NCBI RefSeq assembly: GCF_003390915.1
Contig: NZ_QMEM01000011.1
Location: 1-64,000, forward strand
Direction of reading: 5' to 3'
DNA from: Lewinella sp. IMCC34183
GTDB lineage: Bacteria > Bacteroidota > Bacteroidia > Chitinophagales > Saprospiraceae
DNA: 64,000 bases
The notes under the pieces were generated by a model. It searched no databases, had not been told where the DNA came from, and saw nothing but the letters and a program-made list of their open reading frames with translations. Of the stretch, positions 47,231 to 62,884 are shown piece by piece (positions within the stretch are counted from its first letter, which is position 1; every line of letters starts with the position of its first letter). Position numbers and translations under genes: made by a program.

Positions 47231-48493
47231 TTATGGAGCCTCGGTGCGGGGGCCTTCCTCGCCAATCGTCAATTCACCCGCCACGAGCTGATTCAGTGCG
47301 TCGAGGTTGGGAAACCACGGCAACTTCCCGTTTCCTTCCCGCCAGGCCAGGTAACACTCCAGTAGCCAGCCACGGGGAGACTTGCCGGCATGGAAGCTGG
47401 CGCCCGTATGGGTAGCCGTCAGTATCTCCTCGATCTCGGGATCGGCCGGTCCCTTGATGATGGCCATGATCGGCCGGCCGGTAGAGAGGTAATCGTACAG
47501 CTTGGCGGTGAGTACCCCGTAGTAATCGGGGCCCGTCCAGCTGAGCAGTAGCAGCACCTGGGCATCCCGCTGCAGCTTTTGCGCGGCCGCGGGAGAAATG
47601 TACCCGCGCGTATTGCAGTGGACGTACTGGTTTAGGTCCTTGGTAAGCTCTTTCCACAGGGCATCATCCTTGCCCCGGTATACCAGCTCGACCTCTCCGG
47701 GCTCCACCTCACCGGCGGCGACCAGCGCGTTGAGGCTGTCGACAAGGGGGGCCAGGGTGTGCAGTCGTTCGTACAGGCTGCCCGTATAAACAATGGTGAA
47801 GCGGTCGGTCCGGGGAGCGGTTGTCGCCGGCGGAAGCTCGTTGATGCTGTTGCGCCGCACCGTCGCGCCGGGAAAGAGCTTGCGCAGCTGCTCTACCTGT
47901 CCCCGCGATACGCCCCACACCTCATCGGCCTCCCGTAGCACGCGCCGCCCCCACCACCGTTGCAGGGCGGGCCACCATACGTCGTGGCGGATGGGATCGG
48001 CGTGAATGTCGCGGAAATCGGCAATCCAGTGCAGCCGCGGAAATTCGCGTTTGAGCCGGCGGGCTACGAGATGATCGCTCCAGGGGCGAAAGGAGGACAA
48101 GATGGTGGTAATGCGTTTCTCGCGTACCAGCCGCACCGCTTCGCGGTAGGCCTCGCGGCGGTAGACCGGGCCACCGTCGTCGGTGAGGTAGAGGAAGGGG
48201 AAGGACTGCCGGAGATCGAGCAGGGGGCCGGACAGGCGCCGGCGGAGGCTGTCGTAAGGGAGGGTCTGCGCCGGGCCGCTGCCACCGGCTACGGTGCGGA
48301 GATCCCGGGCCGGCAGGGCGGTGACGTGCAGGCCGGGCGGATCGGCCCCTTTGAACCCCCGGTCGGCCCGGATGACGTAGATCGCCCCGTAGCGGTGCCT
48401 GGCCCACTCGGCCAGTTGCCCCAGGCGCCGTCCCGCTACCGCCGGCCGCGGTGGGAAGTAATTGGTAATGAAGAGGATGTTACCCGCCGCCAA
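47231..48493 (-). CDS. GT4-type glycosyltransferase
   Basis: This 420-aa GT-B enzyme starts 'NILFITNYFPPRPAVAGRRLGQLAEWARHRYG'. A donor-domain pattern follows: 'TIVYTGSLYERLHTLAPLVDSLNAL', 'VLLLLSWTGPDYYGVLTAKLYDYLSTGRPIMAIIKGP'. The last motif, with LYDYL in place of the usual E-x7-E block, is typical of a GT4 subgroup often annotated simply as glycosyltransferase. It is the last gene of the minus-strand priming operon. The donor is unknown. Confidence 0.82.
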   Translation of the reverse strand: MAAGNILFITNYFPPRPAVAGRRLGQLAEWARHRYGAIYVIRADRGFKGADPPGLHVTALPARDLRTVAGGSGPAQTLPYDSLRRRLSGPLLDLRQSFPFLYLTDDGGPVYRREAYREAVRLVREKRITTILSSFRPWSDHLVARRLKREFPRLHWIADFRDIHADPIRHDVWWPALQRWWGRRVLREADEVWGVSRGQVEQLRKLFPGATVRRNSINELPPATTAPRTDRFTIVYTGSLYERLHTLAPLVDSLNALVAAGEVEPGEVELVYRGKDDALWKELTKDLNQYVHCNTRGYISPAAAQKLQRDAQVLLLLSWTGPDYYGVLTAKLYDYLSTGRPIMAIIKGPADPEIEEILTATHTGASFHAGKSPRGWLLECYLAWREGNGKLPWFPNLDALNQLVAGELTIGEEGPRTEAP

Positions 48494-48539
48494 GGTGCGT
48501 GATTAATGGTGTACGTGAGTTCCTACTCCCGGGTGGCGG

Positions 48540-49226
48540 TCACTGTACGACGCCCGCCTCGGAAAATACCGGCACCTCCGGGAACACCCGATATACGAGA
48601 TCGGAACCGGGCTGGATGATCACCCATGCAGTAAGAAACAAAATTTTCAGGTCCACCATAAACGACTGGTGTGCCTGGTACCACTGCTCGACGCGGCCCT
48701 TGTGCGGGTAAATGACCGTCCGGTAGTATTCCCAGGTATCGTCGCCGCGGTCGCGCACGCGGGTGATGAGCCGCTCCTCGTCGCGGAAGACAATGCTTCC
48801 GATGCCGGTGATCCCGGGCCTGACGTTGTAGATCACCTCCTGTACCCCGGTCGGGTACTGCTCGAAGCTCTTACGCATCACCGGCCGTGGCCCCACGAAG
48901 CTCATGGTCCCGAAAAGGACGTTCAGCAACTGCGGCAGCTCGTTGATCTTCGAACTCCGTAAAAAGCCCCCCATCGGCGTGATCCGGGGATCGCGGGCGG
49001 TCGTGATGATGCCGCCCTTCATGTTAGGGCTGTCCTTGAGCATCGTGGCAAACTTGTAGATGTTGAAGGGCCGGTTGCGGTAACCGATGCGCTCCTGCAA
49101 GTAAAAGACGTACCCCTCCCCCGTAAGCTTCAGGCCGATGACGATCGGGATGAGCAGCGGGGAAAGAATCAGCAAGGCGAAAAAGGCAAAGCAAACGTCA
49201 AAAAAACGCTTTACAACTGGGTACAT
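48540..49226 (-). CDS. Bacterial sugar transferase (phosphoglycosyl transferase, PglC/WcaJ-type)
   Basis: This 228-aa monotopic phosphoglycosyl transferase moves a sugar-1-phosphate from UDP-sugar to undecaprenyl phosphate, the first membrane step. It has an N-terminal hydrophobic re-entrant helix (10-33), 'FYLQERIGYRNRPFNIYKFATM', 'RITPMGGFLRSSKINELPQLLNVLFGTMSFVGPRPVM' and the C-terminal 'VRPGITGIGSI'. It has the short PglC-like form, without the four-helix WcaJ N-terminus. It lies 2 nt after the dehydratase gene, fitting priming with the sugar made by that cassette. Confidence 0.93.
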   Translation of the reverse strand: MYPVVKRFFDVCFAFFALLILSPLLIPIVIGLKLTGEGYVFYLQERIGYRNRPFNIYKFATMLKDSPNMKGGIITTARDPRITPMGGFLRSSKINELPQLLNVLFGTMSFVGPRPVMRKSFEQYPTGVQEVIYNVRPGITGIGSIVFRDEERLITRVRDRGDDTWEYYRTVIYPHKGRVEQWYQAHQSFMVDLKILFLTAWVIIQPGSDLVYRVFPEVPVFSEAGVVQ

Positions 49227-49228
49227 CT

Positions 49229-50446
49229 CTACATTTTCTGGTCGAGGGAACGACCGGTCTCTAGGTGCACAAAGTTAGGGATGAAATCGACCATCAACTG
49301 TACGATAGCGGCCTTATCGATGGTAGTGTCCCGAAATTGGGCGTTCAGGCGCGCAAACATCACGTCTATGTCCTCCACGCTCTTGCGGCCGGCGTTGCGG
49401 ATCACTCCGAGCTGGGCGAACCGGTCGCGGTCGATGTCCTCCCCCTCGGTAAAGAACTCCTCGTAGGGCTTCTCTCCGGAAGTATTGCTGCCGAAGAAGT
49501 AGACCGGGTACGCTTCGTCCTCCCGGGAGAGGTTGGCGGCCGCTTCCCGGGCCTCCTGCTCGGTACTACAGTACCGGGGGGTGTAGTCGCCGTACTCCCG
49601 CAGGAAGTCCTCGGCAATGCTGGAGAACGTGCGCATCTGCTCCTCGCGCAGGTTGGGAAAAAAGATCTCTCCGCTGCGGCCCAGGATACAGGCGAGGAGG
49701 CAAAGCTGGCCGGATTCCTCCGGGCTCACGAAGTAGCGCTTCACGTCATTGGGGGAGCTCAGCGGCTGCTGCTTCATCATCCGCTCCAGAAAGCCAAACA
49801 GCAGGCTCCCGTTGGAGAAGGCGACATTCGCGAAGCGGGCGGTGCTGATCTTGAGCCGGTCGGAGTAGGCCAGGATAACCTCCTCCATAAGCTTCTTGCT
49901 GGCCCCCATCACGTTGACGGGGTTGGCGGCCTTGTCGGTGGATACGCAGAAGAAGTGCTTCGGTGGCTGCGCCAGCAGCAGTTCCAGCAGCTGCTTGGCC
50001 TTGAGTACGTTGTTGTCGATCATGGCCTCGATGGAGTAGTGGTCCTTCTCGCTGCGCACGTGCTTGTGCGCCGCGAAGTTGGCCACGATGTCGAAGGGGC
50101 CTTCGTTTTGCATGATCTTGGCAAATACCGGGTCGCCAAAGTTGATCGGGTAGGGCTTGTAATCATCGGGGACGTTGAGGTCGGCGGCGGAGCGCAGGTC
50201 CCGGGTTAATTCGGTAAGGCCGTTCTCGTTGATATCGATCACGTACAGCCGCGCGGGCCGGAACCGCAGCAGGGCCCGGATGAAGCTCGACCCGATGGTG
50301 CCGGCCCCGCCGATGACGAGTGCCGACTTACCGTCGATCTCACGCGCGAGTTGGTCATGGTAGGTGGCCAGGTCAGCGGTAAATAGGCTTTCCTCGCGCT
50401 CGGTTACGTAGGTATTGATGAAGCTGTTTAGGCTGAAGTGTTTCAT
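49229..50446 (-). CDS. UDP-sugar 4,6-dehydratase-like SDR protein
   Basis: This 405-aa extended SDR protein has NAD-binding 'ALVIGGAGTIGSSFIRALL' (46-52 GGAGTIG), 'YVIDINENGLTELTRDLRS', 'VANFAAHKHVRSEKDHYSIEAMIDNNV' and 'HFFCVSTDKAANPVNVMGASKKLMEEV'. The TDK in the active-site strand and the MGASK motif mark the FlaA1/PglF/CapD-type UDP-GlcNAc 4,6-dehydratases (soluble form). It would supply the 4-keto sugar for the LegC-type aminotransferase upstream. An insertion at about 285-340 is Glu/Asp-rich. Confidence 0.85.
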   Translation of the reverse strand: MKHFSLNSFINTYVTEREESLFTADLATYHDQLAREIDGKSALVIGGAGTIGSSFIRALLRFRPARLYVIDINENGLTELTRDLRSAADLNVPDDYKPYPINFGDPVFAKIMQNEGPFDIVANFAAHKHVRSEKDHYSIEAMIDNNVLKAKQLLELLLAQPPKHFFCVSTDKAANPVNVMGASKKLMEEVILAYSDRLKISTARFANVAFSNGSLLFGFLERMMKQQPLSSPNDVKRYFVSPEESGQLCLLACILGRSGEIFFPNLREEQMRTFSSIAEDFLREYGDYTPRYCSTEQEAREAAANLSREDEAYPVYFFGSNTSGEKPYEEFFTEGEDIDRDRFAQLGVIRNAGRKSVEDIDVMFARLNAQFRDTTIDKAAIVQLMVDFIPNFVHLETGRSLDQKM

Positions 50447-50477
50447 GGGGTTTTGTTTCTACCGGGCTTGCCGGTTT

Positions 50478-50589
50478 TTACCACAGATTACACGGCCCTG
50501 ATAGACCGGTTATCCACTGATTTCCAAGGTAACATTGCTCCTGAGGGCTGAGCTGCACATCCGTGGGAATCCGTGAAGACCTGTGGTAA
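50478..50589. repeat. Intergenic inverted element with ACCACAG/ATCCGTG motifs
   Basis: TTACCACAG (50478-50486) is inverted as CTGTGGTAA (50581-50589). Between them stand ATTACACGG on the left and CATCCGTGGGAATCCGTG on the right, i.e. short CCGTG-type words on opposing arms. Such words recall an intergenic repeat type seen in several bacterial genomes. It fills most of the only wide gap (187 nt) inside this operon. Its role is unknown. Confidence 0.55.
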
Positions 50590-50633
50590 GGTGTTGAAGC
50601 CTGTTGGTACAGGCCCTTATATTTTGCTGGGTT

Positions 50634-51770
50634 CTACCCGTTGTAAAACTCGTTGATCGTATCCACCACTTCCTGCAGTTGCTGATCCGTCAGCCCGCTG
50701 GAGCTGGGGATGCTGATGGCGGTTTCGTGCACCTTTTTGGCCTGGTGGTTCTCGGTGACGTAGGTCAGCCCCGCGTACATCGGTAGCTGGTTCATCGGCG
50801 TCCAGAAGGGTCTCGACTGTACGCCGCAGTCATTGAGGTAAGTGAGCAACTCCCGCATGCGGTCGGTTCGGAAGGTGAACAACCAGCAATTGGGATCAAC
50901 GCCATCGGTCACCCGCTGAAAGGTGATGTCCCCTACCCCCTTGAGTTGCTCTCGGTAAAAGGCATCCATTTTTTTCTTTCGCTCGATCAGGCCGGGCAGC
51001 TGCTCCATCTGGGCCAGGCCGATGGCGGCGAGTACGTTCACCAGCCGGTAGTTGTATCCGACTTCGTCGTGGAAGTAATCCAGGGGATCGGTCTTTGCGG
51101 TAGTGGTCAGGTGCTTGGCCCGGGTGGCCAGGGTTTCGTCCTGAGTGAAGATCATGCCGCCCCCGCCGGTGGTGATGATCTTGTTGCCGTTGAAGCTGCT
51201 GGTTCCGAATACGCCGAAAGTACCGGCGTGGCGCCCCTTCCAGGTCGAGCCGAGGGCCTCGGTGCTGTCCTCGATAATCGGGAGGTTATGCTCCCCGCAC
51301 ACGGCCAGCAGCCGGTCCATATCGCACATGTTGCCGAGCACGTGGACGGGCATGATGGCTCCGATACGGCGACCGTCCGCGCTGAGGTGGCAGGCCCCGT
51401 CGCGCTTTTCGGTGCGCTCGGCGAGAAAAGATTCCAGCAGGTCGAGATCGAGCTGCCAGCTGTCAACGTCGATATCTAGCAGCAGCGGGTCGGCCTTGGT
51501 GTAGGCAATGGCGTTGAGGGTGGCTACGAAGGTTAGGTTCGGCGCCAGCACGTAATCCCCGGCCCCGATGCCCAGCAGGTTCATGGCGGTATGCAGCCCC
51601 GCCGTTCCGTTCATGCAGGAAATGGCGAAGCGACTGTCGGTGTAGTCCGCGATGGCCGTTTCGAATTTACCGACGTAGGCCCCCGCCGTGGATACCCAGC
51701 CGGTGTCCAGGCATTCCTTGACGTAGGTCCATTCGTTGCCGGCCAGGTGGGGGATGGAAAGGGGGATCAT
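50634..51770 (-). CDS. LegC-family PLP-dependent aminotransferase
   Basis: This 378-aa DegT/DnrJ/EryC1/StrS enzyme starts 'MIPLSIPHLAGNEWTYVKECLDTGWVSTAGAYVGKFE', nearly the signature of LegC/PglE-like aminotransferases, which put an amino group on C4 of UDP-4-keto-6-deoxy-GlcNAc. 'DSTEALGSTWKGRHAGTFGVFGTSSFNGNKIITTGGGGMI' carries the PLP lysine (SFNGNK). The ATG at 51770 overlaps the upstream acetyltransferase stop by 4 nt (ATGA). The frame extends 70 codons upstream in non-homologous Arg-rich sequence, rejected. The gap before the dehydratase holds the inverted element. Confidence 0.9.
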   Translation of the reverse strand: MIPLSIPHLAGNEWTYVKECLDTGWVSTAGAYVGKFETAIADYTDSRFAISCMNGTAGLHTAMNLLGIGAGDYVLAPNLTFVATLNAIAYTKADPLLLDIDVDSWQLDLDLLESFLAERTEKRDGACHLSADGRRIGAIMPVHVLGNMCDMDRLLAVCGEHNLPIIEDSTEALGSTWKGRHAGTFGVFGTSSFNGNKIITTGGGGMIFTQDETLATRAKHLTTTAKTDPLDYFHDEVGYNYRLVNVLAAIGLAQMEQLPGLIERKKKMDAFYREQLKGVGDITFQRVTDGVDPNCWLFTFRTDRMRELLTYLNDCGVQSRPFWTPMNQLPMYAGLTYVTENHQAKKVHETAISIPSSSGLTDQQLQEVVDTINEFYNG

Positions 51771-52396
51771 GTTCTGGATTTTGCGGGATTGCCGTACACG
51801 GTGGCACCCGCGGGTACGTCGCGCAAAACTACGGCTCCGGCGCCGATGGTGGCGTGATCGCCGATGTGAATTCCCGGCAGCACGACCGCACCGGCGCCTA
51901 CCAGGGCCCCCGTTCCCACGTGTACATTGCCGGTCAGTATCGCCCCGGGCGCTATGTGGGCATAGGCACCCACAAAACACTCGTGATCGACCTGCGCACC
52001 GGTGTTGATGATCGCACTCACCCCGACGGTCGCGAAGGTTCCGACCGTGGCCCGCACGGCTATCAGGGCGGCGGCTGCGATGCGGGCGCTAGGCACAACG
52101 GTGGCGGCGGGATGGATTACGGCTTCGGTCAGGGATAAACCCCGCCCAAGTATGCGTTGGGTGAGTTTACGGCGCAGGGTATTGTCGCCCGTTGCGGGGA
52201 AAAAGCTGACGTCCGGGCCACCGCCGCCCTCAATATCGTGGTCCGTGCCGAGGTAAGCCAGATGAAAAGGGTTGCTTTCCTTGGGTTCGAGATCGTAGTA
52301 CCCGGCCGGCGTTCGGCCGATTGCCAGCAAGGCCTCACAGACCACCCAAGCGTGGCCGGAGTACCCCAACAGGGCCACGCGATCAGCTTTCTCCAT
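51767..52396 (-). CDS. NeuD/PglD-type sugar N-acetyltransferase
   Basis: This 209-aa enzyme has a small N-terminal Rossmann-like part ('VALLGYSGHAWVVCEALL') and a left-handed beta-helix of hexapeptide repeats ('VVPSARIAAAALIAVRATVGTFATVGVSAIINTGAQVDHECFVGAYAHIAPGAILTG'), with the catalytic His in VDHE. It would acetylate the 4-amino sugar made by the LegC-type enzyme using acetyl-CoA. It lies 17 nt after the lipoyl-acyltransferase gene, giving two related acyltransferases side by side. Confidence 0.9.
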   Translation of the reverse strand: MEKADRVALLGYSGHAWVVCEALLAIGRTPAGYYDLEPKESNPFHLAYLGTDHDIEGGGGPDVSFFPATGDNTLRRKLTQRILGRGLSLTEAVIHPAATVVPSARIAAAALIAVRATVGTFATVGVSAIINTGAQVDHECFVGAYAHIAPGAILTGNVHVGTGALVGAGAVVLPGIHIGDHATIGAGAVVLRDVPAGATVYGNPAKSRT

Positions 52397-52413
52397 AGCG
52401 CTTGCGGGGCGGC

Positions 52414-53511
52414 TTACTTGTCCGCAAGGTCCTTGAAGACGTTTTCTCCGTTGTTGACAAGCTGCCCCGCCCCGATCGAGACTCCCAGGTATACGTTGCT
52501 GTTCATGCCGACTACCGAGTTCTTCCCGATGCTTACCATACCCGCCAGGGTACTGCCGGGCGTCAGGTGGGCATTATCGTCGAGTACGCAATCGTGGCTT
52601 ACGATGGCACCGGAATTGATAATGCAGTTGTTACCTACCGTGACGTTACTGCCAACTATCGCACCCGCAAAAACCTGGTTGCCCTGCCCCATGCTGACCG
52701 ACCGCTCTATGGTTGCCCGGGGGTGGATCAGGTTCGGTACCGTAAACCCTAATCCGGTCAGCATCTCGTAGATCCGGCTCCGCGCCCGCGGATTGGCCAG
52801 GGCCCCGATACCGATGACCGCCTGCCGGATACCGTGCTTCGTAAAGAGGTCCGGAAGGTCATCGTTCGTACCGAGAATGGGCAGCCCGTACGCCTCCGAC
52901 GGGGAGTCTTCCGTACCGATGAACCCAACGCACCTGAGGCCGGGCTGATGCTGCAGCAGATCCAGACAGGCCCCTGCGTGCCCCTTCTCTCCGATGATGA
53001 TCACCGATTGGGCATCGTAGGTAGCGTTCTGGGGCGAAGCCATCACCCGGGGCACGTCGGTCCGGGGTCTGCCCGCTGGTGTCCCGTTTCCCAGTATGTC
53101 CCGCGTAGTGATCAGCGAAAGTCCAGGAAAGTCGCTTGCTTCCAGGCCACGCTCCTTCATCATCTCCCGGGCGGCGGCCGATACGCGTACGTTGCCCCTG
53201 GGGGCTGCGTTGGCGGTGCCTGTCGGGGAGTCGGGCGCCGGCTGGTCCGGCGCGCTCATCTCCTTCTGCGGCGTGATACGTGCGAACACCTCGCCCGCCG
53301 CAATGTCCTCGCCTTCGGCGACCATATAGTGGATGTAGCCGTCGGCGGGCGCGTCCAGCTCGAAATCGGCCTTTGAGGTTTCCAGGGCTCCGATGGTATC
53401 CCCTTCCGCTACCCGGTCTCCCGAGGCGAAGTTCAGCTCGGTGACCCGGTAGAAGTCATCACTAACGGTTTCCTTGGGGACGACGACATTGACGGACTGA
53501 TCAGCGGCCAT
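52414..53511 (-). CDS. Lipoyl domain + E3-binding-like segment + NeuD/PglD acyltransferase fusion
   Basis: This 365-aa protein has an unusual order. Residues 6-81 form a lipoyl domain with the modification site Lys47 in LETSKADFELDAPADGYI. Residues 84-106 are an Ala/Pro-rich swinging linker. Residues 108-140 (VSAAAREMMKERGLEASDF...TTRDI) resemble a peripheral-subunit-binding domain. Residues 168-250 are the NeuD/PglD Rossmann part (IIIGEKGHAG), and 260-360 a left-handed beta-helix with catalytic His306 (VSHDC). No CAT-type E2 catalytic domain is present. It overlaps the E1 gene by 11 nt. Inferred role: transfer of a lipoyl-bound acyl group to an amino sugar. Confidence 0.85.
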   Translation of the reverse strand: MAADQSVNVVVPKETVSDDFYRVTELNFASGDRVAEGDTIGALETSKADFELDAPADGYIHYMVAEGEDIAAGEVFARITPQKEMSAPDQPAPDSPTGTANAAPRGNVRVSAAAREMMKERGLEASDFPGLSLITTRDILGNGTPAGRPRTDVPRVMASPQNATYDAQSVIIIGEKGHAGACLDLLQHQPGLRCVGFIGTEDSPSEAYGLPILGTNDDLPDLFTKHGIRQAVIGIGALANPRARSRIYEMLTGLGFTVPNLIHPRATIERSVSMGQGNQVFAGAIVGSNVTVGNNCIINSGAIVSHDCVLDDNAHLTPGSTLAGMVSIGKNSVVGMNSNVYLGVSIGAGQLVNNGENVFKDLADK

Positions 53512-55498
53512 GGGCGAGTTCTTTTACGGCATTAACGATGGCTTCGGTACCGGGCAGCAGCTTGATCTCCCCGGGAAGCGAGCAGGGGATCACGCCGTCG
53601 AATCCGAGCCGCTTCACGGCCAGTTCGCGGGGCCCGGCCGCGACCACCGAGGCGATCGCCTCCGCGCCAAAGGCCGCAAAGGAAGTACCCTCTTCCGCCA
53701 CGACCAGCTTACCGGTGACTGCTGTACTCTCCAGCAGCGAGGCAGGATCGAAGGGGTGCAGGAGCGTCGGACAAATCACTTCACAGAGAATTTCATGCTC
53801 GTCAAAGGCGCGTTCCGCGGCCCGCTCCGCCTCTTCCAGCATTCCGCCGTAGCAGAGAATCGTTACCTCCGCCGCCACGCCTTCGGGCCGCATCCGGAGC
53901 ACCGGCAGGTCGCCTCCGCTGCTTTCCAGGAGGAAGCCGTCCGGAGTTTTGCGGTTGAGGCTCCGGGTGTAGAGGATCTTGTTTTCCAGTACGACCACCG
54001 GACTGTTGCTCCGTTCGAACAGCCCCCGGTAAATCGTTCCGGGCGCGATGCGGTGGTTCAGGGCCACCACGCTCAGCCCGGGAATACCCAGAAAGAAGCG
54101 TTCGATGGACTGGCTGTGGGTAGGTCCGTACCCCCGCCGGCCGCCCATGGGCGTACGGACGATCAGGGGAACGTTGACACGACCGCCGTACATGGCGTGA
54201 AACTTGGCCGCGTGCTGCAACAGCTGGTCTAGCGTGAGGGTCATAAAGTCCCCGAACATGATCTCGACGACGGGCAACATGCCGCCCACGGCGAGACCGG
54301 TCCCCACGCCGGTGATGGCGGCCTCGCTGATGGGGGTATTTCTTACCCGGTCGGGAAATAGGGTACTCAGGTCGCGGGTCACCTTGAAGGCCCCCCCGTA
54401 GGCTTTGTCCGTAAACTCAGTCCGCTCCTGGATATCCTCACCGATCAGCACCGTGCGCTCGTCGCCGGCAAACTGCTCCTGCAGGGCCTGGTAGATGAGC
54501 TCGTTGAAGCGGGTGTCACTACGCTCGGAGAGGGGCGACCATCCGGAAGCTCCGGCTGCCGGTGTGTCGTCCCAGGCCGGATGGCAACCTTCCTGTACGG
54601 GATCACCCTCGGCCGCTGCTACGGCCTCGTCGATGATCTGGTCCGCCGCGGCGACCAGCTCTCGGTACGCCTCGGGTTGCGCTTCGGCGAAGGCGTTGAT
54701 CATGTCTTTGCCGCGGTATTCCGCCACTTCCTCCTCCCGGCGGTTATCGTCGCTCTTGCTGTGGCTATTCAGGCGGTACGTCTCAATTTCCAGGACCACC
54801 GGCCGGCCGCCGCGCGCGGTTTCTACTGCCCGGCGGCTCGCCTGGTCCAAATCGTCCAGATCGAAGGTCGAGCTGTGGATGTACTCCAGCCCGAATCCCC
54901 GGACCCGCTCCTCCACCGAGCCCGCAAAGGTCTGCCGGAAGGAGGTCGACTGTGCATAGCCGTTGTTCTCGATTACGACCAGCAGCGGCAGGTTCCAGAT
55001 TCCCGCCAGGTTAAGGGTTTCGTACAGGATGCCCTCCCCCAGGGTTCCGTCACCGGTGAAGGCGACACTGAGGCTTTTATTTCCCTTGATCGTATCCGAG
55101 AGGGCGACGCCGGCCGCCACGGGGACCATGCCCCCCTGAATGCCGTTAGAGAGGTAGCGGTGTGCCGTCAGGTGTTGGCTGCCGCCCATGCCCCGGCTTA
55201 CCCCGGTCGTCCGCCCCATAACCTCGGCCATCAGCCCCCGCACATCCTGCGTACGGGCAATGAAGTGACCGTGGCCGCGGTGATTCGAGACGATGAAGTC
55301 ATCCGCTTCCAGGTGCGGGACGATCATGACGGGGGAAAACTCCTGTCCGACGCACGTATGCACCGTACCGTTGAGTTTCCCCTCGCCAAAGAGGTCCAGC
55401 AGTCGCTCCTCCGTTCTGCGCACCAGAATGGCGGAGCGGAAGTGGTCCAGGTACTTGATGTCAGATTCGTTTTCTGCCGTCGGCAAACGATTGACCAT
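53501..55498 (-). CDS. 2-oxoacid dehydrogenase E1, fused alpha and beta subunits
   Basis: This 665-aa thiamine-diphosphate enzyme decarboxylates a 2-oxoacid and acylates lipoyl-lysine. The alpha half (1-330) has HRGHGH (73-78), GMGGSQHL (103-110) and the TPP motif GDG (149-151)...NNG (178-180). The beta half (340-665) has 'VLIGEDI', 'FPDRVRNTPISEAAITGVGTGLAVGGMLPVVEIMFGDFMTLTLDQLLQHAAK' and 'MGGRRGYGPTHSQSIERFFLGIPGLSVVAL'. Fused E1 chains are common in Bacteroidota, but this one lies inside a glycan operon and is followed by a lipoyl protein without a CAT domain. No E3 gene is near. The substrate (pyruvate or another 2-oxoacid) is unknown. Confidence 0.92.
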   Translation of the reverse strand: MVNRLPTAENESDIKYLDHFRSAILVRRTEERLLDLFGEGKLNGTVHTCVGQEFSPVMIVPHLEADDFIVSNHRGHGHFIARTQDVRGLMAEVMGRTTGVSRGMGGSQHLTAHRYLSNGIQGGMVPVAAGVALSDTIKGNKSLSVAFTGDGTLGEGILYETLNLAGIWNLPLLVVIENNGYAQSTSFRQTFAGSVEERVRGFGLEYIHSSTFDLDDLDQASRRAVETARGGRPVVLEIETYRLNSHSKSDDNRREEEVAEYRGKDMINAFAEAQPEAYRELVAAADQIIDEAVAAAEGDPVQEGCHPAWDDTPAAGASGWSPLSERSDTRFNELIYQALQEQFAGDERTVLIGEDIQERTEFTDKAYGGAFKVTRDLSTLFPDRVRNTPISEAAITGVGTGLAVGGMLPVVEIMFGDFMTLTLDQLLQHAAKFHAMYGGRVNVPLIVRTPMGGRRGYGPTHSQSIERFFLGIPGLSVVALNHRIAPGTIYRGLFERSNSPVVVLENKILYTRSLNRKTPDGFLLESSGGDLPVLRMRPEGVAAEVTILCYGGMLEEAERAAERAFDEHEILCEVICPTLLHPFDPASLLESTAVTGKLVVAEEGTSFAAFGAEAIASVVAAGPRELAVKRLGFDGVIPCSLPGEIKLLPGTEAIVNAVKELAHGR

Positions 55499-55532
55499 AC
55501 GGGAATAATTGTTTTGGTTAGGATAGTACCGG

Positions 55533-56729
55533 CTACCGCTCTTCGGAGGCAGCCAATTCCCGGTAGCGCCGCAAAAGCGTCTGGTGGATCACGCCCCGGT
55601 CGTACCGCTCCCTGATTTCCTGCAGCAGCTCATCCGCCATTAGACGGACCTCACTGTAACGGGTCAGAGCGCGTCGTAGTTCTTCGGTTAGCGCACCTAC
55701 ATCGCCGACGGGAAACAGCAAGCCGGTCACGTCATCCGATACGATGTCCACGTTACCCGGAATCCGGGAGCATACGATAGGGCAACCCATCGCGCCGGCC
55801 TGCAGCAGGACATTGGGGAAGCCTTCCCGGTGGGAGGGGTGGACCAGCAGGTGGGCCAGGTGCAAATACGCCGGCACCTCATCCGTCCAGGGAATATGGA
55901 CGATGGCCGGGTTCCCCGTCAGCTCCTCCACCGTTTCCGCGGGTAGTGTCTCTTCGGCCCGCTCTTCTTCCAGCGGGCCCAGCAGTACCAGGCGCAGATC
56001 GGGAAGCTCACCGGACAGGCCCCGGAAGGCCGCGAGCATTTCGATGATCCCCTTGTCCCGCACGAGACGGCCCACCACCACCAGGTACCGACAGGCGGGA
56101 TCGTAGCCCATCTCCCGCTTTACCGCGGTAAGGGTTTCATCGGACAACGATTCCGGTGAAAACTGGGCCAGATCGATCCCGTTCGTGGAGCCCTGGCCGA
56201 TCATCTCCAGTTTATCGGGGGAGCATATTTTTCTTTCCGTCAGCTCATTCAGGATGCTCCGACTGTTGGGCCAGACATTTGTAGCGGCCAGGCAAGTGAG
56301 CCGCTCCATGGCAACAAGCAGGCGGCGCCGGTTGCCGGTAGTCGTCATATAGGGCAGGCCGGCCACGGTATGGATACGAACGGGCACCCTCGCCATACGG
56401 GCGGCCAGCATGCCCAGGAGCCCCGCCTTGGGGGTGTGAGTATGCACGATATCCGGGCGAAAGCGGCGCATCAGGTCCACCAGCTGCCGGAGGCACCGCA
56501 GGTCATGCAGTGGCGTTATCGCCCGCGTAAAGGGTACGATCACGTGGGGGCATTTCTCGTAGTCCCGGACTAGTTCTACTTCGGGGCCGTCGGCGCTGCA
56601 CAGCAGCACCTCCATCCCGTGGTTTGCCATAAACTTCGCCTGCCCGGTGATGAGCAACCGCAGGGAGATGGGTACGGTAGTGATCCGCAGGAGCCGCAAC
56701 TCCCGGGCACCCGGTTTACTGTCGGGCAT
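55533..56729 (-). CDS. GT4 family glycosyltransferase
   Basis: This 398-aa GT-B enzyme has 'LRLLRITTVPISLRLLITGQAKFMANHGMEV', 'RPDIVHTHTPKAGLLGMLAARMARVPVRIHTVAGLP' and donor-site 'YLVVVGRLVRDKGIIEMLAAFRGL' plus 'LLVHPSHREGFPNVLLQAGAMGCPIVCS'. The usual E-x7-E motif reads E-x7-Q, a variant I have seen in Bacteroidota GT4 enzymes. It lies directly upstream of the E1 gene (34 nt) and overlaps the deacetylase gene by 14 nt. Confidence 0.9.
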   Translation of the reverse strand: MPDSKPGARELRLLRITTVPISLRLLITGQAKFMANHGMEVLLCSADGPEVELVRDYEKCPHVIVPFTRAITPLHDLRCLRQLVDLMRRFRPDIVHTHTPKAGLLGMLAARMARVPVRIHTVAGLPYMTTTGNRRRLLVAMERLTCLAATNVWPNSRSILNELTERKICSPDKLEMIGQGSTNGIDLAQFSPESLSDETLTAVKREMGYDPACRYLVVVGRLVRDKGIIEMLAAFRGLSGELPDLRLVLLGPLEEERAEETLPAETVEELTGNPAIVHIPWTDEVPAYLHLAHLLVHPSHREGFPNVLLQAGAMGCPIVCSRIPGNVDIVSDDVTGLLFPVGDVGALTEELRRALTRYSEVRLMADELLQEIRERYDRGVIHQTLLRRYRELAASEER

Positions 56730-57708
56730 GACTGAGTTCTTGCATGGTCACGCTTTCCATACCGTGGCGTTCCCGCAGACGGCTAAAGTGCCGGAGCACG
56801 GCATCCAGGGCAGCCATATTTTTGACCGGATCGGTAGCTAAATTATGCGGATGCCACCAAAGGTGGTAAGTGCGGCCGGTTTCGGCGGCGGCGGTCATCT
56901 CGGAAAGTATCCTGCGGAGTTTCAGGTGCTGTCCTCCGTAGCCGTCCAGTCTGGGTAGGTAGGGCCGGAGAAACCGGCTGGCCGGGAGGTTAGCGAGGTC
57001 AGGTGATCCCCCTTCCGGATGCCCGGTCGAGGGTCCGCTCAGCGGCAGGTAGTGATCGAGCAGGCGCACGGCTTTCTGGGCGGAGCCGGTGTCTTCACCG
57101 TTTGCCGCCTGCCAGAACCAGGCGGGGGGGTTCCCCCGGTAGCTGGTGAACCCAGCCGCCGCCGCCACCTCCGTGAAGTGGCTTTGGTTACGTGGATACA
57201 CGAGGGAGGTGAGCTCCACCCCGAAGTTGGCCAGGGCCAATTGACGGGCGGCCCGCAGGTCGGCGGCGAAGCTTTCCGCCGTGGCCCCCCGCTCCAGGCA
57301 ATAAAAGTGGGAGAAGGTGTGGCTCGCCATCTCCTGGCGGGGGGTATCGATGATGGCCTGGATGAGCGACGGGGCGTAGTGATACGGATCTTCCGACTCG
57401 TCGCGCCCCACGCCATCGAGAAGCGCGTAAGGATTCAACGCGGCGTTCCGGTAAGCGGGCCGCACGTCAGGGACGGCGGCCAGCAGGTCCTCGCGGTCCC
57501 GGGCGAACAGCATACCCACCGTGGCCCAGGTTGCCGCTACGCCGTGGTCGGCGAACCGCCGCAGCGTAATGGGAATCAGCTCCCGGGTGCGGTCGAAGTA
57601 CTTCCTGCCCGGCCCGTCCAGCCGGAGGTGGTCGAATACCCCCCAGTGAAGCTCAAAGTCCAGCGAAATGACCAGGCGGGGCACGGTTACGACGGATTCA
57701 CTCACCAA
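56716..57708 (-). CDS. Polysaccharide deacetylase family protein (NodB-like)
   Basis: This 330-aa protein has 'LVISLDFELHWG' (Asp17), 'HGVAATWATVGMLFA' and the metal pair SHTFSHFY (His130, His134), as in carbohydrate esterase 4 enzymes. The C-terminal 'TYHLWWHPHNLATDP' gives the late histidine block. It would remove N-acetyl groups from a surface glycan, although no export signal is visible, so a cytoplasmic or lipid-linked substrate is likely. It overlaps genes on both sides (14 and 11 nt). Confidence 0.85.
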   Translation of the reverse strand: MVSESVVTVPRLVISLDFELHWGVFDHLRLDGPGRKYFDRTRELIPITLRRFADHGVAATWATVGMLFARDREDLLAAVPDVRPAYRNAALNPYALLDGVGRDESEDPYHYAPSLIQAIIDTPRQEMASHTFSHFYCLERGATAESFAADLRAARQLALANFGVELTSLVYPRNQSHFTEVAAAAGFTSYRGNPPAWFWQAANGEDTGSAQKAVRLLDHYLPLSGPSTGHPEGGSPDLANLPASRFLRPYLPRLDGYGGQHLKLRRILSEMTAAAETGRTYHLWWHPHNLATDPVKNMAALDAVLRHFSRLRERHGMESVTMQELSHARQ

Positions 57709-58864
57709 TGATCACTTTACCCCGGGTACGGTAGGCATAATCGGCGTAGGCCAGGACGATAAACAGGAAAAGGTACATGACCTGCGACTTCTGGCGGATC
57801 GCGATGCCCATGTTACCGCTGATCTGGGCGAGGGCGAAAGAGATACCGAAGAAGGTGACGAGCGAAATTTTAACCGCCCAGGAAGATTGCAGAACGAAGC
57901 GGACAAAGGACATGGAGAGACACTTCCAGAAAAGGATTAGGTAGAACACATTCTCTACCGATACCAGCAGCCCCATTGCGTTAGGCGAGTCGACGAAAAG
58001 CGGGCGAAACCAGAAGGTGAACAGCTTCATGAACTGGTTGTAGTTCGCGATGTCCACACCCGAATCCGCTTTGGTCAGTGACTGCCCCCGCGTGTCGCTG
58101 AAGTCCGTAAAGCCATCCGCGCTCGCATCATCGATCTCGGCCAGGTCCAGGAAGGTACCGGCCACGGGTACCAGGGCGGCAATGGCGACCAGCACGATGA
58201 GCGTTTTCTGCCACGTTTTGATGCCCTTTGAGGAAGTCAGCGATGCCACTACAGCCCCCAGCAGTACGACCAGCAGAATGTGTGGCCTGACGTGGAAGAT
58301 CAACAGCCCCCCGATGGCGGTGGTGATCAGCCGCCGGCCGATGTCGCTTAGGCCGTAAAACACCATACCCAGGCCCATGAGGATGACCCCCCCCTTACCG
58401 AGGGACACCGTCCAGAAATGCATATTCGGCAGGAACAACAGCAGCACCACGAAGTCCACGCCCAGGAAGCGGTGACGAAAGGTAGTCTTGTCTACCATGA
58501 ACAGGTAGAAGTATAAGATCCCCAGAAAGCCGAAGAAGGAAAAGAGCAGCATCATCGCCTCATAGCTGAATCCCAGCCCGTTAACGAAGGGAAAGGCCAT
58601 GAACTTGATGAAGACCGATCCGATCCCGTAAAAATCTTCCCAGCTGTCGCCGATGTAGCTTCCGCTGAACGAATCGCGGTAGTAGCGCCGCGAGTCGCTG
58701 TTGTTGTATAGCGAGTTGATGTAGTAGACCGCGAACAGGAGGTAATGAAAGGCGTACGCCCCCCAGAGCACGGATTTCGGGTGCCGCAGCTCCTTAGCCT
58801 TCGCATTCAGGAACCAGGCGGTCCCCAAGGTGGAAAAGATGATGACGATGAGCGCGCTCAGCAT
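57698..58864 (-). CDS. Predicted polymerase-like membrane protein (Wzy/EpsG-type)
   Basis: This 388-aa protein has about 10 membrane helices and a polar loop near 230-265 ('EIDDASADGFTDFSDTRGQSLTKADSGVDIANYNQFMKLF'). The overall topology and 'YNNSDSRRYYRDSFSGSYIGDSWEDFYGIGSVFI' resemble Wzy/EpsG glycan polymerases. These families are poorly conserved, so the assignment rests mainly on topology and place: it sits between the deacetylase and glycosyltransferase genes, and the window has a flippase but no other polymerase candidate. Confidence 0.68.
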   Translation of the reverse strand: MLSALIVIIFSTLGTAWFLNAKAKELRHPKSVLWGAYAFHYLLFAVYYINSLYNNSDSRRYYRDSFSGSYIGDSWEDFYGIGSVFIKFMAFPFVNGLGFSYEAMMLLFSFFGFLGILYFYLFMVDKTTFRHRFLGVDFVVLLLFLPNMHFWTVSLGKGGVILMGLGMVFYGLSDIGRRLITTAIGGLLIFHVRPHILLVVLLGAVVASLTSSKGIKTWQKTLIVLVAIAALVPVAGTFLDLAEIDDASADGFTDFSDTRGQSLTKADSGVDIANYNQFMKLFTFWFRPLFVDSPNAMGLLVSVENVFYLILFWKCLSMSFVRFVLQSSWAVKISLVTFFGISFALAQISGNMGIAIRQKSQVMYLFLFIVLAYADYAYRTRGKVIIGE

Positions 58865-58867
58865 GGA

Positions 58868-59797
58868 TCAGAAGAGTTCCATATCCCCCAGATTGTAGGA
58901 CCAGTTCTCTACATCCGGCGGCGCGTCAAAGTTCAGCGGCCGGAAGGTGAGGAGAGGACCCTTGGCGAGGGTGACCGATGCGAGGGAGCGCGGTACCGTA
59001 CCGGGCGCCTCGGAGATCAGGACGGCTCCCGACCGACGCGCCGTGTGTAATACGGCGCGCTGGCACTCCCGTTCCGCCCCGGGGGTAGTAATTCGTTCGA
59101 CCACCCGCATCTCAAGCCCCCAGCGTTGCTCCTTGAAGTAGTAAATGACCAGGTACTTGCCCGCCGATCCGGCGGCGGCATAATCGACCACCGGGCACCG
59201 GGCGTAGCGCCACTCCAGGAACGCGCTGCTCCGTGGGGTGTACCAGTCGTGCTGCTCTCCCGTCAGGGTTTCGTACACGAAGAGATCATCCATCGAGGTT
59301 GCCGGCACCGGCCCGGGCGGGCGTTCGGAGAGTCCGGCCAGCGCCATGGCCAGACGAAGCGGACGGACGGGCCGCAGGTTAACTGGGAGTCGTCCAAGTT
59401 TGCGCCACCCCATTTTCAGGTAGCCCGGCGCACTCTTTTCGTTGGGCGTATTGAAGATGAAGTGATCCCCTTCACGTTGGCAATCCTCGACCAGCTGCAG
59501 GGTGAGCTTCTTGAAGATGCCCCGCCCGCGGTAGTCCGGGTCGGTGGCCGTGTCTACGGCGCGCAGCGCACGGTAGGTGTTGCCCCCGTCGCGCCAGTTC
59601 CAACGCATGAAGGCCCGGATGCCCACGAGCCGCCCATCGGCCTCGGCCACGAGTACCGGAGAAGGTCCGAAGGGGTTCTCCTCGTGTTTCCAGCGCCAGT
59701 AGGCTTCGCTTTTGGGGGTGGACGCCTCGCCCATGCTGCGCTGCAGCAAGTCGATGATGGCGGGACGGTCGGCGGGGGTGGTGGGTCTGATGGTCAT
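58868..59797 (-). CDS. GNAT family acyltransferase of the glycan cluster
   Basis: This 309-aa GNAT-like protein has 'TIRPTTPADRPAIIDLLQRS', then 'RALRAVDTATDPDYRGRGIFKKLTLQLVEDC' (acyl-CoA P-loop, RGRGIF) and 'HFIFNTPNEKSAPGYLKMGWRKLGRLP'. The NPFGPSP and NTPNxxSxPGYLKMGW blocks are shared with the protein at 62003, so the two are paralogues. The C-terminal half is a second alpha/beta unit. The acceptor is probably a glycan sugar; not proven. It overlaps the next gene by 4 nt. Confidence 0.82.
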   Translation of the reverse strand: MTIRPTTPADRPAIIDLLQRSMGEASTPKSEAYWRWKHEENPFGPSPVLVAEADGRLVGIRAFMRWNWRDGGNTYRALRAVDTATDPDYRGRGIFKKLTLQLVEDCQREGDHFIFNTPNEKSAPGYLKMGWRKLGRLPVNLRPVRPLRLAMALAGLSERPPGPVPATSMDDLFVYETLTGEQHDWYTPRSSAFLEWRYARCPVVDYAAAGSAGKYLVIYYFKEQRWGLEMRVVERITTPGAERECQRAVLHTARRSGAVLISEAPGTVPRSLASVTLAKGPLLTFRPLNFDAPPDVENWSYNLGDMELF

Positions 59798-60906: not shown

Positions 60907-62003
60907 GGTCGTTGGTGTAGGACGTCGCCGTAAATCTGCTCAAAGGTCGTCACCGCGCGGTCGATCGCGTAGTCGCGGCGCACGTTCTGCCGCGCCTGCT
61001 CCCCGAGCCGGCGGCGCAGGTCGTCGTTTTCCAGGATACTGGCCAGGGCCCCGGCGTAGGCTTCCAAGTCGTGACTGGGCACGAGCAGGCCGGTCACGTC
61101 GTCCTTGAGTACCTCCTTCACCCCGCCCACATCGACGGCGACGGTCGGGGTACCCTGAATAGCCCCCTCCAGGATTACCCCCGGTATGCCCTCCACGGTC
61201 GATACGATGGCTAGCGCGTCGGCGGCGGCCAGGAAGGGTGCTATCTCGGAGTGTACCCCCCAGAACCGGATCCGGTCCTTCAGGCCCGACGCTTGCGCGT
61301 AGGTTTCCAGTTCCTCCCGCATCGGCCCGTCGCCGACGAACCAGAGGTGAAGCGTTGGCAAACGGTCGCCCAGCCGCTGCACGCAGTCGATCAGGAAGCG
61401 GTGGTTCTTCTCCACGCTGAGTTTCCCCACGAGCGCCACGACCGGGTAGTCGACCCCCAGCCGTTCGCGCTCCGCCCGCCGGTCCAGCCGGGCCTCCGTA
61501 TCGATGCCGCGGCGCACGGTGGCAATGCGGTCCTCCGGATACTGCAGCGTACGCACGAAGTCCTGCCGGCTCTCGTCGCTGACGGAGGTGACGTAATCGA
61601 TGCGGCCGAACATCCACCGCTGCAGGCGGAGCTGCAGGGAAGAACGTATCCACTGGCTGATGATGCTGATGTTGCGGTAGACCACGCGGGCGGAGGGCCG
61701 CAGCAGCTTCAGGGCCACGCTGTACTTGAGCGTATCCGAGCCGTTGGCCTGGATGATGTCGGGCCGGTAGTCGTCGTAGTAGCGAACCAGCGTTCGCAGC
61801 AGTTTGGGGGAGAACTTCGCACCCGCGTTCCCGCCCAGGTCCTGGTTACTGCAGCCGGGGGCGGTCAGCTCGGTTTCCGGCGCCGGGTACAGGCCGACGA
61901 AAGCAACCTCGTGCCCCCGTTCGGCGAGGCCGGTAGAGAGCAGCGAAGCGAAAACCTCGGCGCCTCGGTACTGCCGGCGGGTGACAAGTTGGAGTATGCG
62001 CAT
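60903..62003 (-). CDS. GT4 family glycosyltransferase
   Basis: This 366-aa GT-B enzyme has 'MRILQLVTRRQYRGAEVFASLLSTGLAERGHEV', 'VVALVGKLSVEKNHRFLIDCVQRLG', 'LHLWFVGDGPMREELETYAQ' and the E-x7-E motif in 'EGIPGVILEGAIQGTPTVAVDVGGVKEVL'. Its start overlaps the stop of the upstream GNAT gene by one base (TGATG). Confidence 0.93.
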   Translation of the reverse strand: MRILQLVTRRQYRGAEVFASLLSTGLAERGHEVAFVGLYPAPETELTAPGCSNQDLGGNAGAKFSPKLLRTLVRYYDDYRPDIIQANGSDTLKYSVALKLLRPSARVVYRNISIISQWIRSSLQLRLQRWMFGRIDYVTSVSDESRQDFVRTLQYPEDRIATVRRGIDTEARLDRRAERERLGVDYPVVALVGKLSVEKNHRFLIDCVQRLGDRLPTLHLWFVGDGPMREELETYAQASGLKDRIRFWGVHSEIAPFLAAADALAIVSTVEGIPGVILEGAIQGTPTVAVDVGGVKEVLKDDVTGLLVPSHDLEAYAGALASILENDDLRRRLGEQARQNVRRDYAIDRAVTTFEQIYGDVLHQRP

Positions 62004-62884
62004 CAGAGAACGTCTTCGAGGTCGCCGGGTGAGAAAATGAGCCCGGTCGCGGTCAGCGTTTCGGCATCACGGACGGCGACGAGGCTGCTCCCCTTCTTCT
62101 TCCGGAGCCCGCCGTTGCCCACGGGCCACTCCGGCAGGTCGGCCAGGGTATGAACGAGGTAACAGTTCTCCCGCCGCGCCGCGGCACGGGTGAGTCCTTC
62201 CTGCAAAGCCGCCGGGCCGGCATAGTCGGATACGGAAAGCACCCGCAATCCCCGTACGGACAGCATGCGGTATACGAGCAGGGCGCTGCGGGATGCGGTG
62301 GAGGTGGCGAAGCGGTAAACCGGTCCGGCATAGCGCCAGCGGAGAAAATCGGCGGACAGGTCCGTGCGGTACCGATCGGTAACGGTGACCTCCGGGGATA
62401 CCTCCGTGGGATAGTGGCTCCCGACGGTAGCCTGGGGGAAGTTACCGAAGGGCGGGCACAGCCGGTAGGCGTACGGAAGGGGTTCGCCGTAGACTTCCCA
62501 GCCCATCTTCAGGTAGCCAGGCAGGCTGTTGGAATTGGGGGTATTGTAGACCGGGGGCAGCCCGGGGGTCGCCAGCTGCTCGAGGCCGTAGCGGGTCAGC
62601 CGGGAGAATACCCCCTGCCGGCGGGCCGAGGGGTGTACGACCGTATCCACGGGCCGGATTGCGTCGATGGTACCCGCCAGGTTGCGAAAGCGCCAGCGCA
62701 GGAAGAAGCGGGCGGCTACGATCTTGCCGTCCATCTCGGCCAGGAAGCCCGGTGACGGGCCGAAGGGGTTGTCGCGGTGCTTCCAGTCGAACCAGGACCG
62801 ATCGCCGGTCTTGCTCAGTCCGGTTCCGAAGAGCGCCAGTACCTCCTGCAGATCTTCCCCGTAATTGAAGGGCCTAAATTCCAC
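62003..62884 (-). CDS. GNAT family acyltransferase, paralogue of the one at 58868
   Basis: This 293-aa protein has 'RSWFDWKHRDNPFGPSPGFLAEMDGKIVAARFFLRWRF', 'RPVDTVVHPSARRQGVFSRLTRYGLEQL' (acyl-CoA loop RRQGVF) and 'VYNTPNSNSLPGYLKMGWEVYGEPLP'. It shares order and motifs with the 58868 protein but is well diverged. The two GNAT genes enclose two GT4 genes. It overlaps the partial GT4 gene upstream by 11 nt. Confidence 0.82.
   Translation of the reverse strand: MEFRPFNYGEDLQEVLALFGTGLSKTGDRSWFDWKHRDNPFGPSPGFLAEMDGKIVAARFFLRWRFRNLAGTIDAIRPVDTVVHPSARRQGVFSRLTRYGLEQLATPGLPPVYNTPNSNSLPGYLKMGWEVYGEPLPYAYRLCPPFGNFPQATVGSHYPTEVSPEVTVTDRYRTDLSADFLRWRYAGPVYRFATSTASRSALLVYRMLSVRGLRVLSVSDYAGPAALQEGLTRAAARRENCYLVHTLADLPEWPVGNGGLRKKKGSSLVAVRDAETLTATGLIFSPGDLEDVL

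Follow-up and report, generated by a model that had tools for sequence, protein, structure and literature searches.

What would an E1 dehydrogenase be doing beside a sugar acyltransferase? The question is raised by two overlapping genes at positions 52414-55498 of a 64,000-nucleotide stretch of DNA from Lewinella sp. IMCC34183 (contig NZ_QMEM01000011.1; the whole stretch is referred to here as the window), in which a gene for a fused E1 alpha/beta protein is followed by a gene for a NeuD/PglD-type acyltransferase with a lipoyl domain at its N-terminus. The reading that we favor, with moderate confidence and from sequence comparison, is that the pair would form a dedicated relay independent of coenzyme A (CoA), in which a glycolyl group would pass to a lipoyl group on Lys47 and from there to a nucleotide-linked amino sugar. 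The features of the pair are the following.

53501-55498, minus strand: fused E1 alpha/beta of 665 amino acids, dependent on thiamine diphosphate (ThDP), of the RenH/two-component-transketolase-like clade (Pfam; tree support 100/100; 22 clade-specific columns).
52414-53511, minus strand: fusion of a lipoyl domain, a segment like a peripheral subunit-binding domain (PSBD) and a NeuD/PglD acyltransferase, 365 amino acids, its start overlapping the E1 stop by 11 nt.
53272-53493, minus strand: lipoyl domain, residues 7-80, with an (S/N)D signature and ETSK motif (Pfam Biotin_lipoyl, AlphaFold2, Foldseek, signatures).
53371-53373, minus strand: codon of Lys47, the predicted lipoylation site, invariant in 11/11 fusions.
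53092-53187, minus strand: PSBD-like two-helix segment, residues 109-140, without the GxGxxGR loop (AlphaFold2, hhalign).
52756-53010, minus strand: PglD_N domain, residues 168-252, the nucleotide-sugar platform in homologues (Pfam PglD_N, AlphaFold2).
52417-52746, minus strand: left-handed beta-helix acyltransferase domain, residues 256-365, GxPA tail absent (Hexapep, TIGR03570, Foldseek).
52594-52596, minus strand: codon of His306, aligned with the His that we take to be catalytic in the PglD/PerB family (11/11 fusions).

The domain content of both proteins was examined with Pfam and NCBIfam models. The 665-residue protein matched E1_dh, Transket_pyr and Transketolase_C. The 365-residue protein matched Biotin_lipoyl at residues 21-79 (4.1e-9, 36.6 bits), PglD_N at 170-251 (6.9e-8) and Hexapep (1.8e-10), and its score with the NeuD/PglB/VioB model TIGR03570 was above the cut-off (169.2 vs 160.8 bits). 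No match to 2-oxoacid_dh (PF00198), the catalytic core (CAT domain) of E2 proteins, was found in it at E<=0.1. The two open reading frames (ORFs) share positions 53501-53511, and the lipoyl motif reads E44-T-S-K47-A-D-F-E51. Indeed, the original prediction, made from the letters alone, had described a fused E1 gene overlapping its neighbor by 11 nt, a lipoyl domain with Lys47 in ETSKADFE, a NeuD/PglD domain with His306 and the lack of an E2 catalytic domain, and all four were borne out. The segment that it had called E3-binding-like stood in part: alignment with hhalign related it to canonical PSBDs at 89.5% probability, but Pfam E3_binding was unmatched and the GxGxxGR loop was absent.

The structure prediction that had been proposed for the 365-residue protein returned a three-part chain. 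The AlphaFold2 model contained a lipoyl barrel, a two-helix PSBD-like piece and a PglD-like domain with beta-helix, with a mean predicted local distance difference test (pLDDT) of 87.5 and a predicted template modeling score (pTM) of 0.59; a distant Chryseobacterium fusion was modeled with its elements in the same order (mean pLDDT 88.8, pTM 0.62). The lipoyl domain was modeled as strands (block pLDDT 80-96) and the PSBD-like helices spanned residues 112-121 and 136-140 (block pLDDT 79-89). Foldseek matched the lipoyl part to the pyruvate dehydrogenase (PDH) lipoyl domain PDHK-L2 (3crk_C, TMt 0.80) and the PglD-like part to PerB (4ea7, TMt 0.90). These data confirm that a lipoyl-bearing, E1-partnered NeuD/PglD fusion is encoded.

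The fusion was not peculiar to the window. Eleven distinct fusions were found, nine in Bacteroidota, one in a Longimicrobiales metagenome-assembled genome (MAG) and one in a Bdellovibrionales MAG; besides the window and these last two, the set comprises Neolewinella marina, Chryseobacterium cheonjiense and a second genome of that genus, three MAGs whose titles read Haliscomenobacteraceae or Saprospiraceae, and genomes G532 and G616. Fusions covering both halves of the query were present in at least 2/60 relatives, 4/298 family, 5/395 phylum, 2/395 class and 3/396 order genomes; these samples share genomes, the window's own being in each of them, and the counts are lower bounds because mostly the best 3 to 6 candidates per genome were scored. 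A profile scan of the genome_contigs set yielded seven fusion loci, and a single-sequence scan of the same set no relative. No fusion was found in the viral_contigs scan, and 0/61 matching plasmid records had one place covering 80% of the fusion. The apparent spread outside Bacteroidota rests on two MAG contigs (L082 and L083), and the E1 of the Bdellovibrionales MAG is very close in the tree to that of a Haliscomenobacteraceae MAG.

A survey of genome neighborhoods, as the original prediction had suggested, placed an E1 directly upstream of the fusion in 11/11 cases. By the listed start codons, the two genes overlap by 4-14 nt in ten of the eleven and are separated by a 5-nt gap in one; in G616 the E1 is split into two genes. 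Lys47 and His306 are both invariant across the eleven, and His306 was also kept in 32/32 rows of alignment A4. Distances among the E1s followed those of the two fusion halves (Mantel r 0.94 and 0.90, 0/2000 permutations as high; Spearman 0.75 and 0.45), a correlation that shared ancestry alone could produce.

In a 30-row E1 tree, built without the QncN, NapB and SclQ2 sequences, 17 rows formed a clade (support 100/100) apart from 13 PDH-type, branched-chain 2-oxoacid dehydrogenase (BCKDH)-type and other E1s, and placement of the window E1 among the latter was therefore dropped. The clade consists of the 11 fusion-linked E1s, RenH, the E1s of genomes G695 and G402, and three actinomycete E1s. 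Twenty-two alignment columns were fixed in at least 16 of the 17 members and common to at most 2 of the 13 others. A model built from ten fusion-linked E1s was run over 375 phylum genomes, with the best three candidates per genome scored: four fusion-linked E1s scored 1045.6-1096.2 bits, G402 771.9 and G695 764.6, the separate alpha chain of G616 scored 365, and all other E1s scored no more than 381.2. RenH, of the renieramycin cluster, was the closest plasmid relative (42.8% identity, 809 bits).

Elsewhere in the clade the E1s are paired with proteins combining lipoyl, PSBD-like and 2-oxoacid_dh (CAT) domains, of which six were found. The gene after the E1 encodes a lipoyl and CAT protein in G402 and G695, and RenH is followed by the lipoyl and CAT gene RenI. 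In all six partners T or N replaces the Asp of HxxxDG, presumably a catalytic residue of the CAT domain. The proteins of G402 (L103:258-1505) and G695 (L104:41-1492) carry T at this position and have C-terminal CxxC pairs. A phosphopantetheinyl-transferase ORF (PF01648) follows directly in G402; its extra N-terminal stretch looks by eye like an acyl carrier protein (ACP), and glycosyltransferase-like genes were seen by eye further along. In Streptomyces (L133) ACP, E1 alpha, E1 beta and E2 genes are consecutive and adjoin nonribosomal peptide synthetase (NRPS) genes; this set was likened to sclQ1-4 because its parts are those given in the excerpts of PMC6335953.

Two signatures of the lipoyl domain, (S/N)D around residue 17 and, at the lipoyl site, (S/T)K, were shared in aligned columns by 17/17 of the fusions and CAT-type partners (11 and 6, respectively) and by 0/4 canonical E2s. 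Since E1s of the same clade are elsewhere paired with lipoyl-PSBD-like-CAT proteins of the same lipoyl type, the earlier proposal that the E2 catalytic domain was exchanged for a sugar acyltransferase is supported. Fusion-linked and CAT-linked E1s are not cleanly separated within the clade, and thus one exchange cannot be told from several.

The original prediction had the acyl group come from a 2-oxoacid, and this claim is probably wrong, as the tree places the E1 beside RenH and scl-like E1s. By the same relay, the E1 would in this case decarboxylate pyruvate, 2-oxobutyrate, hydroxypyruvate or a branched-chain 2-oxoacid and the sugar would receive that acyl group. Its E1 domains do belong to the 2-oxoacid dehydrogenase superfamily, its best solved-structure matches are PDH and 2-oxoacid dehydrogenase E1 chains, and its best NCBIfam model is PDH E1 alpha (TIGR03182), though at 213 bits against a cut-off of 393.85; hydroxypyruvate, moreover, would yield an identical glycolyl cargo. 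Yet the E1 lies within the RenH/scl-like clade and away from the 13 others tested, and full-length E1s outside the clade stayed far below the 764.6-1096.2 bits recorded inside it. We regard a 2-oxoacid source as unlikely. The likelier cargo is a glycolyl unit derived from a ketose phosphate, because RenH and the scl-like E1s resemble QncN/QncL, and by clade and lipoyl type the window pair most likely would load a glycolyl unit as QncN/QncL-type systems do.

The acyltransferase half was examined for its donor. The tail motif GxP[AGQKST] was found in 0/11 fusions as compared with 56/71 plain NeuD-type proteins, that is, proteins without a profile match to the lipoyl part, counted with duplicate loci collapsed, drawn solely from the fetched loci and including one 139-residue fragment (L062). 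Six fusions end short and five retain a tail of different sequence; the lipoyl end, too, has diverged further in the group with retained tails, where the domains of L049 and L085 scored 17.4 and 17.8 bits, below the Pfam cut-off of 22.1, although the Lys was kept. Loss of the motif is thus exact for all eleven, and loss of the loop holds solely for the six that end short. In the PglD homologue Pcryo_0637, a conserved C-terminal proline goes from trans to cis upon CoA binding (PMC8040287, in excerpt). From its near-C-terminal position, we read this residue as the proline of GxPA. With the motif gone in every fusion and a C-terminal proline tied to CoA binding in the excerpted account, the donor is probably not CoA, and the claim of transfer without free CoA thus gained comparative support.

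The beta-helix domain might nevertheless take free acyl-CoA, with the lipoyl domain and E1 acting merely as a tether or making a separate product. In favor of this, the domain is a genuine NeuD/PglD homologue and five fusions retain a tail of other sequence. However, such an arrangement is hard to reconcile with a Lys47 and lipoyl signatures conserved in 11/11, a GxP[AGQKST] motif missing in 11/11 and a gene overlap with the E1 in 10/11; the E1 distances that track both fusion halves also speak against it, subject to the same reservation about ancestry. We consider this explanation distinctly improbable.

In the relay that we prefer, the E1, by its clade membership, would use a ketose phosphate such as xylulose 5-phosphate, with a C2 dihydroxyethyl unit remaining on ThDP. 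It would then reductively acylate the oxidized lipoyl group on Lys47, giving glycolyl-dihydrolipoyl. The architecture and the lost CoA tail motif suggest that the lipoyl arm would swing to the fused NeuD/PglD beta-helix domain, where a nucleotide-linked amino sugar would have its amine activated by His306 and receive the glycolyl group directly on the nitrogen, becoming an N-glycolyl sugar without CoA. Finally, cellular lipoamide dehydrogenase (E3) may reoxidize the lipoyl group. The source genome encodes LipA, LipB and two lipoamide dehydrogenases, all scoring over cut-off, and could thus in principle support both lipoylation and reoxidation. The use of E3 is nonetheless the least secure step. 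Pfam E3_binding was unmatched at E<=0.1 in the window protein and in six further fusions. The PSBD-like segment aligned to that of the CAT-type partners at 98.2% probability, and the latter to canonical PSBDs at 92.0%; the GxGxxGR loop was missing from 11/11 fusions and 6/6 CAT-type partners and present in 3/3 E2s of the window's own genome and in L136. The claim that E3 is recruited through this segment is unproven, and the idea that E3 docking is evident from sequence was dropped.

Precedent for the first steps comes from NRPS pathways. According to the excerpts of PMC6335953, QncN/QncL/QncM have been shown to form a C2-glycolicacyl unit and attach it, and the proposed source of this unit in the Scl homologues is a ketose phosphate; NapB/NapD-type enzymes are described as two-component transketolases in the excerpts of PMC7570522. 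These are systems of glycolicacyl-ACP formation (NapB/NapD, QncN/QncL, SclQ2-Q4); RenH/RenI was the nearest sequence found. The window pair shares with RenH/RenI and the three actinomycete loci the E1 clade, the ETSK lipoyl motif with (S/N)D, a shortened PSBD-like segment and the order of E1 then lipoyl protein. Whereas the two-component transketolases contain a CAT-type domain and use an ACP as acceptor of the unit, the fusion has NeuD/PglD instead and no adjoining ACP gene: none was found among the ten family-searched genes at 47231-58864 (gaps of at most 187 nt), with no ACP search made elsewhere in the genome.

The fusion resembles the NeuD/PglD/PerB/VioB proteins (TIGR03570) in its PglD_N domain and left-handed beta-helix, conserved His and 4-amino-sugar gene neighbors, and differs from them in its N-terminal lipoyl and PSBD-like domains, its E1 neighbor in 11/11 cases and its missing GxPA tail. 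With the E2 proteins of PDH, BCKDH and 2-oxoglutarate dehydrogenase (OGDH) it has in common a lipoyl domain, the PSBD position and an E1 partner, whereas it is without the CAT core and the GxGxxGR loop and has (S/T)K in place of DK at the lipoyl site. LpxA and LpxD are left-handed beta-helix acyltransferases with a carrier protein as the source of the acyl group. Their fold is shared (Foldseek matches), but their donor is a phosphopantetheinyl ACP in trans and here it would be the fused lipoyl domain.

The precedents also admit another role for the E1, that of a true transketolase acting on the sugar itself, transferring a C2 ketol unit to give a branched sugar and leaving the lipoyl-acyltransferase protein as a scaffold. 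The name given to the NapB/NapD-type relatives would suit this role, but it would render the conserved lipoyl-Lys and catalytic His superfluous, and the excerpts of PMC6335953 report that QncN/QncL/QncM attach the unit in the form of a glycolicacyl group, which makes the role very improbable. Fusion of unrelated genes by an assembly or sequencing error is refuted (the original prediction had named a sequencing error separating the domains as grounds for refutation), as is chance, because 11 distinct fusions in distinct genomes each adjoin an E1, keep their reading frames open and agree in gene order and in the conserved residues.

Several observations weigh against the CoA-free glycolyl relay. 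The strict tail motif was also missing from 15 of the 71 plain NeuD-type proteins (two of these, L064 and L016, have near-motifs), and the missing motif does not mean that the entire loop is gone, since 5/11 fusions keep a tail of other sequence. The arrangement of domains in the AlphaFold2 models is without confidence at their pTM values. The glycolyl assignment rests on RenH and the sclQ1-4-like loci, with QncN, NapB and SclQ2 outside the tree. Lipoyl reoxidation is unexplained because the E3-binding loop is absent. The acceptor in the window is ambiguous because a plain NeuD gene adjoins the same aminotransferase. The fusion is not the sole candidate N-acyltransferase in the Bdellovibrionales MAG (L083) and a Haliscomenobacteraceae MAG (L048), as each cluster also has a GNAT gene, and no sugar genes were found near the pair in G126 and G270.

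If the relay operates as proposed, an E2-type complex can lose the core that serves as CoA-acyltransferase and place its cargo on the nitrogen of a sugar, being re-tooled from thioester to amide formation on sugars. Left-handed beta-helix sugar acyltransferases would then have, beside acyl-CoA and acyl-ACP, a third class of donor, a covalently fused acyl-lipoyl arm loaded by a transketolase-like E1, for CoA-free N-glycolylation (or other N-hydroxyacylation) of nonulosonic, diamino-uronic and bacillosamine-type sugars from pentose or hexose phosphate; for this wider statement we see the balance as tilting only slightly in favor. It would also provide genes by which bacteria could place N-hydroxyacyl groups on their surface sugars. 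For the N-glyceroyl group of Tannerella pseudaminic acid, the candidate gene "remains elusive" (PMC6120980, in excerpt), and the same group was described as glyceroyl in later papers and as glycolyl in an earlier one (PMC4030854, in excerpt). The origin of such groups is open at least for Tannerella, at which no search here was aimed. The module is compact, consisting of two adjacent, mostly overlapping genes, and recurs across unlike sugar clusters. No description of a lipoyl-sugar-acyltransferase fusion was found among the papers searched.

The earlier suggestion that the acceptor is an amino sugar was supported in several clusters by the neighboring genes. In C. cheonjiense (L085), a TviB/WbpA-like UDP-sugar dehydrogenase, an L-2-hydroxyglutarate oxidase and a DegT aminotransferase lie on one side of the pair and a Gfo/Idh oxidoreductase on the other, which we take to be the parts list of a 2,3-diamino-uronate pathway (WbpA/B/E). 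Among ORFs of 100 or more residues in this 17-kb stretch, no WbpD-type or other acyltransferase besides the fusion was recognized, the large ORF at 1-2412 not having been searched. In G532, the pair separates PseB, PseC and a cytidylyltransferase from a PseI/NeuB-like synthase and a PseG-like hydrolase, the last two scoring below cut-off; the fetched 19.5 kb contained no recognized GNAT, and its sole PseH-size plus-strand ORF (184 residues, 97-651) was without a Pfam match. In these two contexts, the fusion occupies a slot for which no other pathway N-acyltransferase was recognized.

The Bdellovibrionales cluster contains PseC, PseF and PseI in addition to its GNAT gene, and the Haliscomenobacteraceae MAG (L048) has PseB, a DegT aminotransferase and a NeuB-family synthase with its own. 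Downstream of the pseudaminate genes in the former (L083:8660-13793) are a KASIII-like gene, a MaoC/SDR protein and an FkbH-like gene, the last assigned by eye, which suggests another unusual acyl group on the same glycan. The C. cheonjiense oxidase (L085:3709-4899, 547 bits vs a cut-off of 299) lies within the diamino-uronate-like cluster and perhaps clears 2-hydroxyglutarate produced by a WbpB-type oxidoreductase. The nonulosonate cluster of G532 includes a PIG-L-type de-N-acetylase gene (L090:16445-17167, 84.7 bits vs a cut-off of 28.2). In G126 (L049:10987-12894) and G270 (L050:4416-6323), the gene after the E1-fusion pair is acetyl-CoA-synthetase-like (AMP-binding, ACAS_N).

The window locus is itself a surface-glycan cluster, and the genes flanking the pair are as follows.

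51767-52396, minus strand: plain NeuD/PglD acyltransferase of 209 amino acids with its GNPAK tail kept (TIGR03570, 184.4 bits).
50634-51770, minus strand: LegC-family 4-aminotransferase (TIGR04181, 453.6 bits, cut-off 420).
49229-50446, minus strand: nucleotide-sugar dehydratase-like short-chain dehydrogenase/reductase (SDR) (Polysacc_synt_2).
48540-49226, minus strand: initiating sugar-phosphate transferase (Bac_transf).
55533-56729, minus strand: glycosyltransferase directly upstream of the E1 (Glycos_transf_1).

Further glycosyltransferases and a flippase-like gene are found farther along the cluster. Two GNAT-type (Acetyltransf_9) proteins are encoded in it at 58868-59797 and 62003-62884. 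Upstream of the glycosyltransferase, the gene at 56716-57708 gave a weak polysaccharide-deacetylase match (17.7 bits vs a cut-off of 23.1), and a de-N-acetylase at this position could expose an amine for the fusion.

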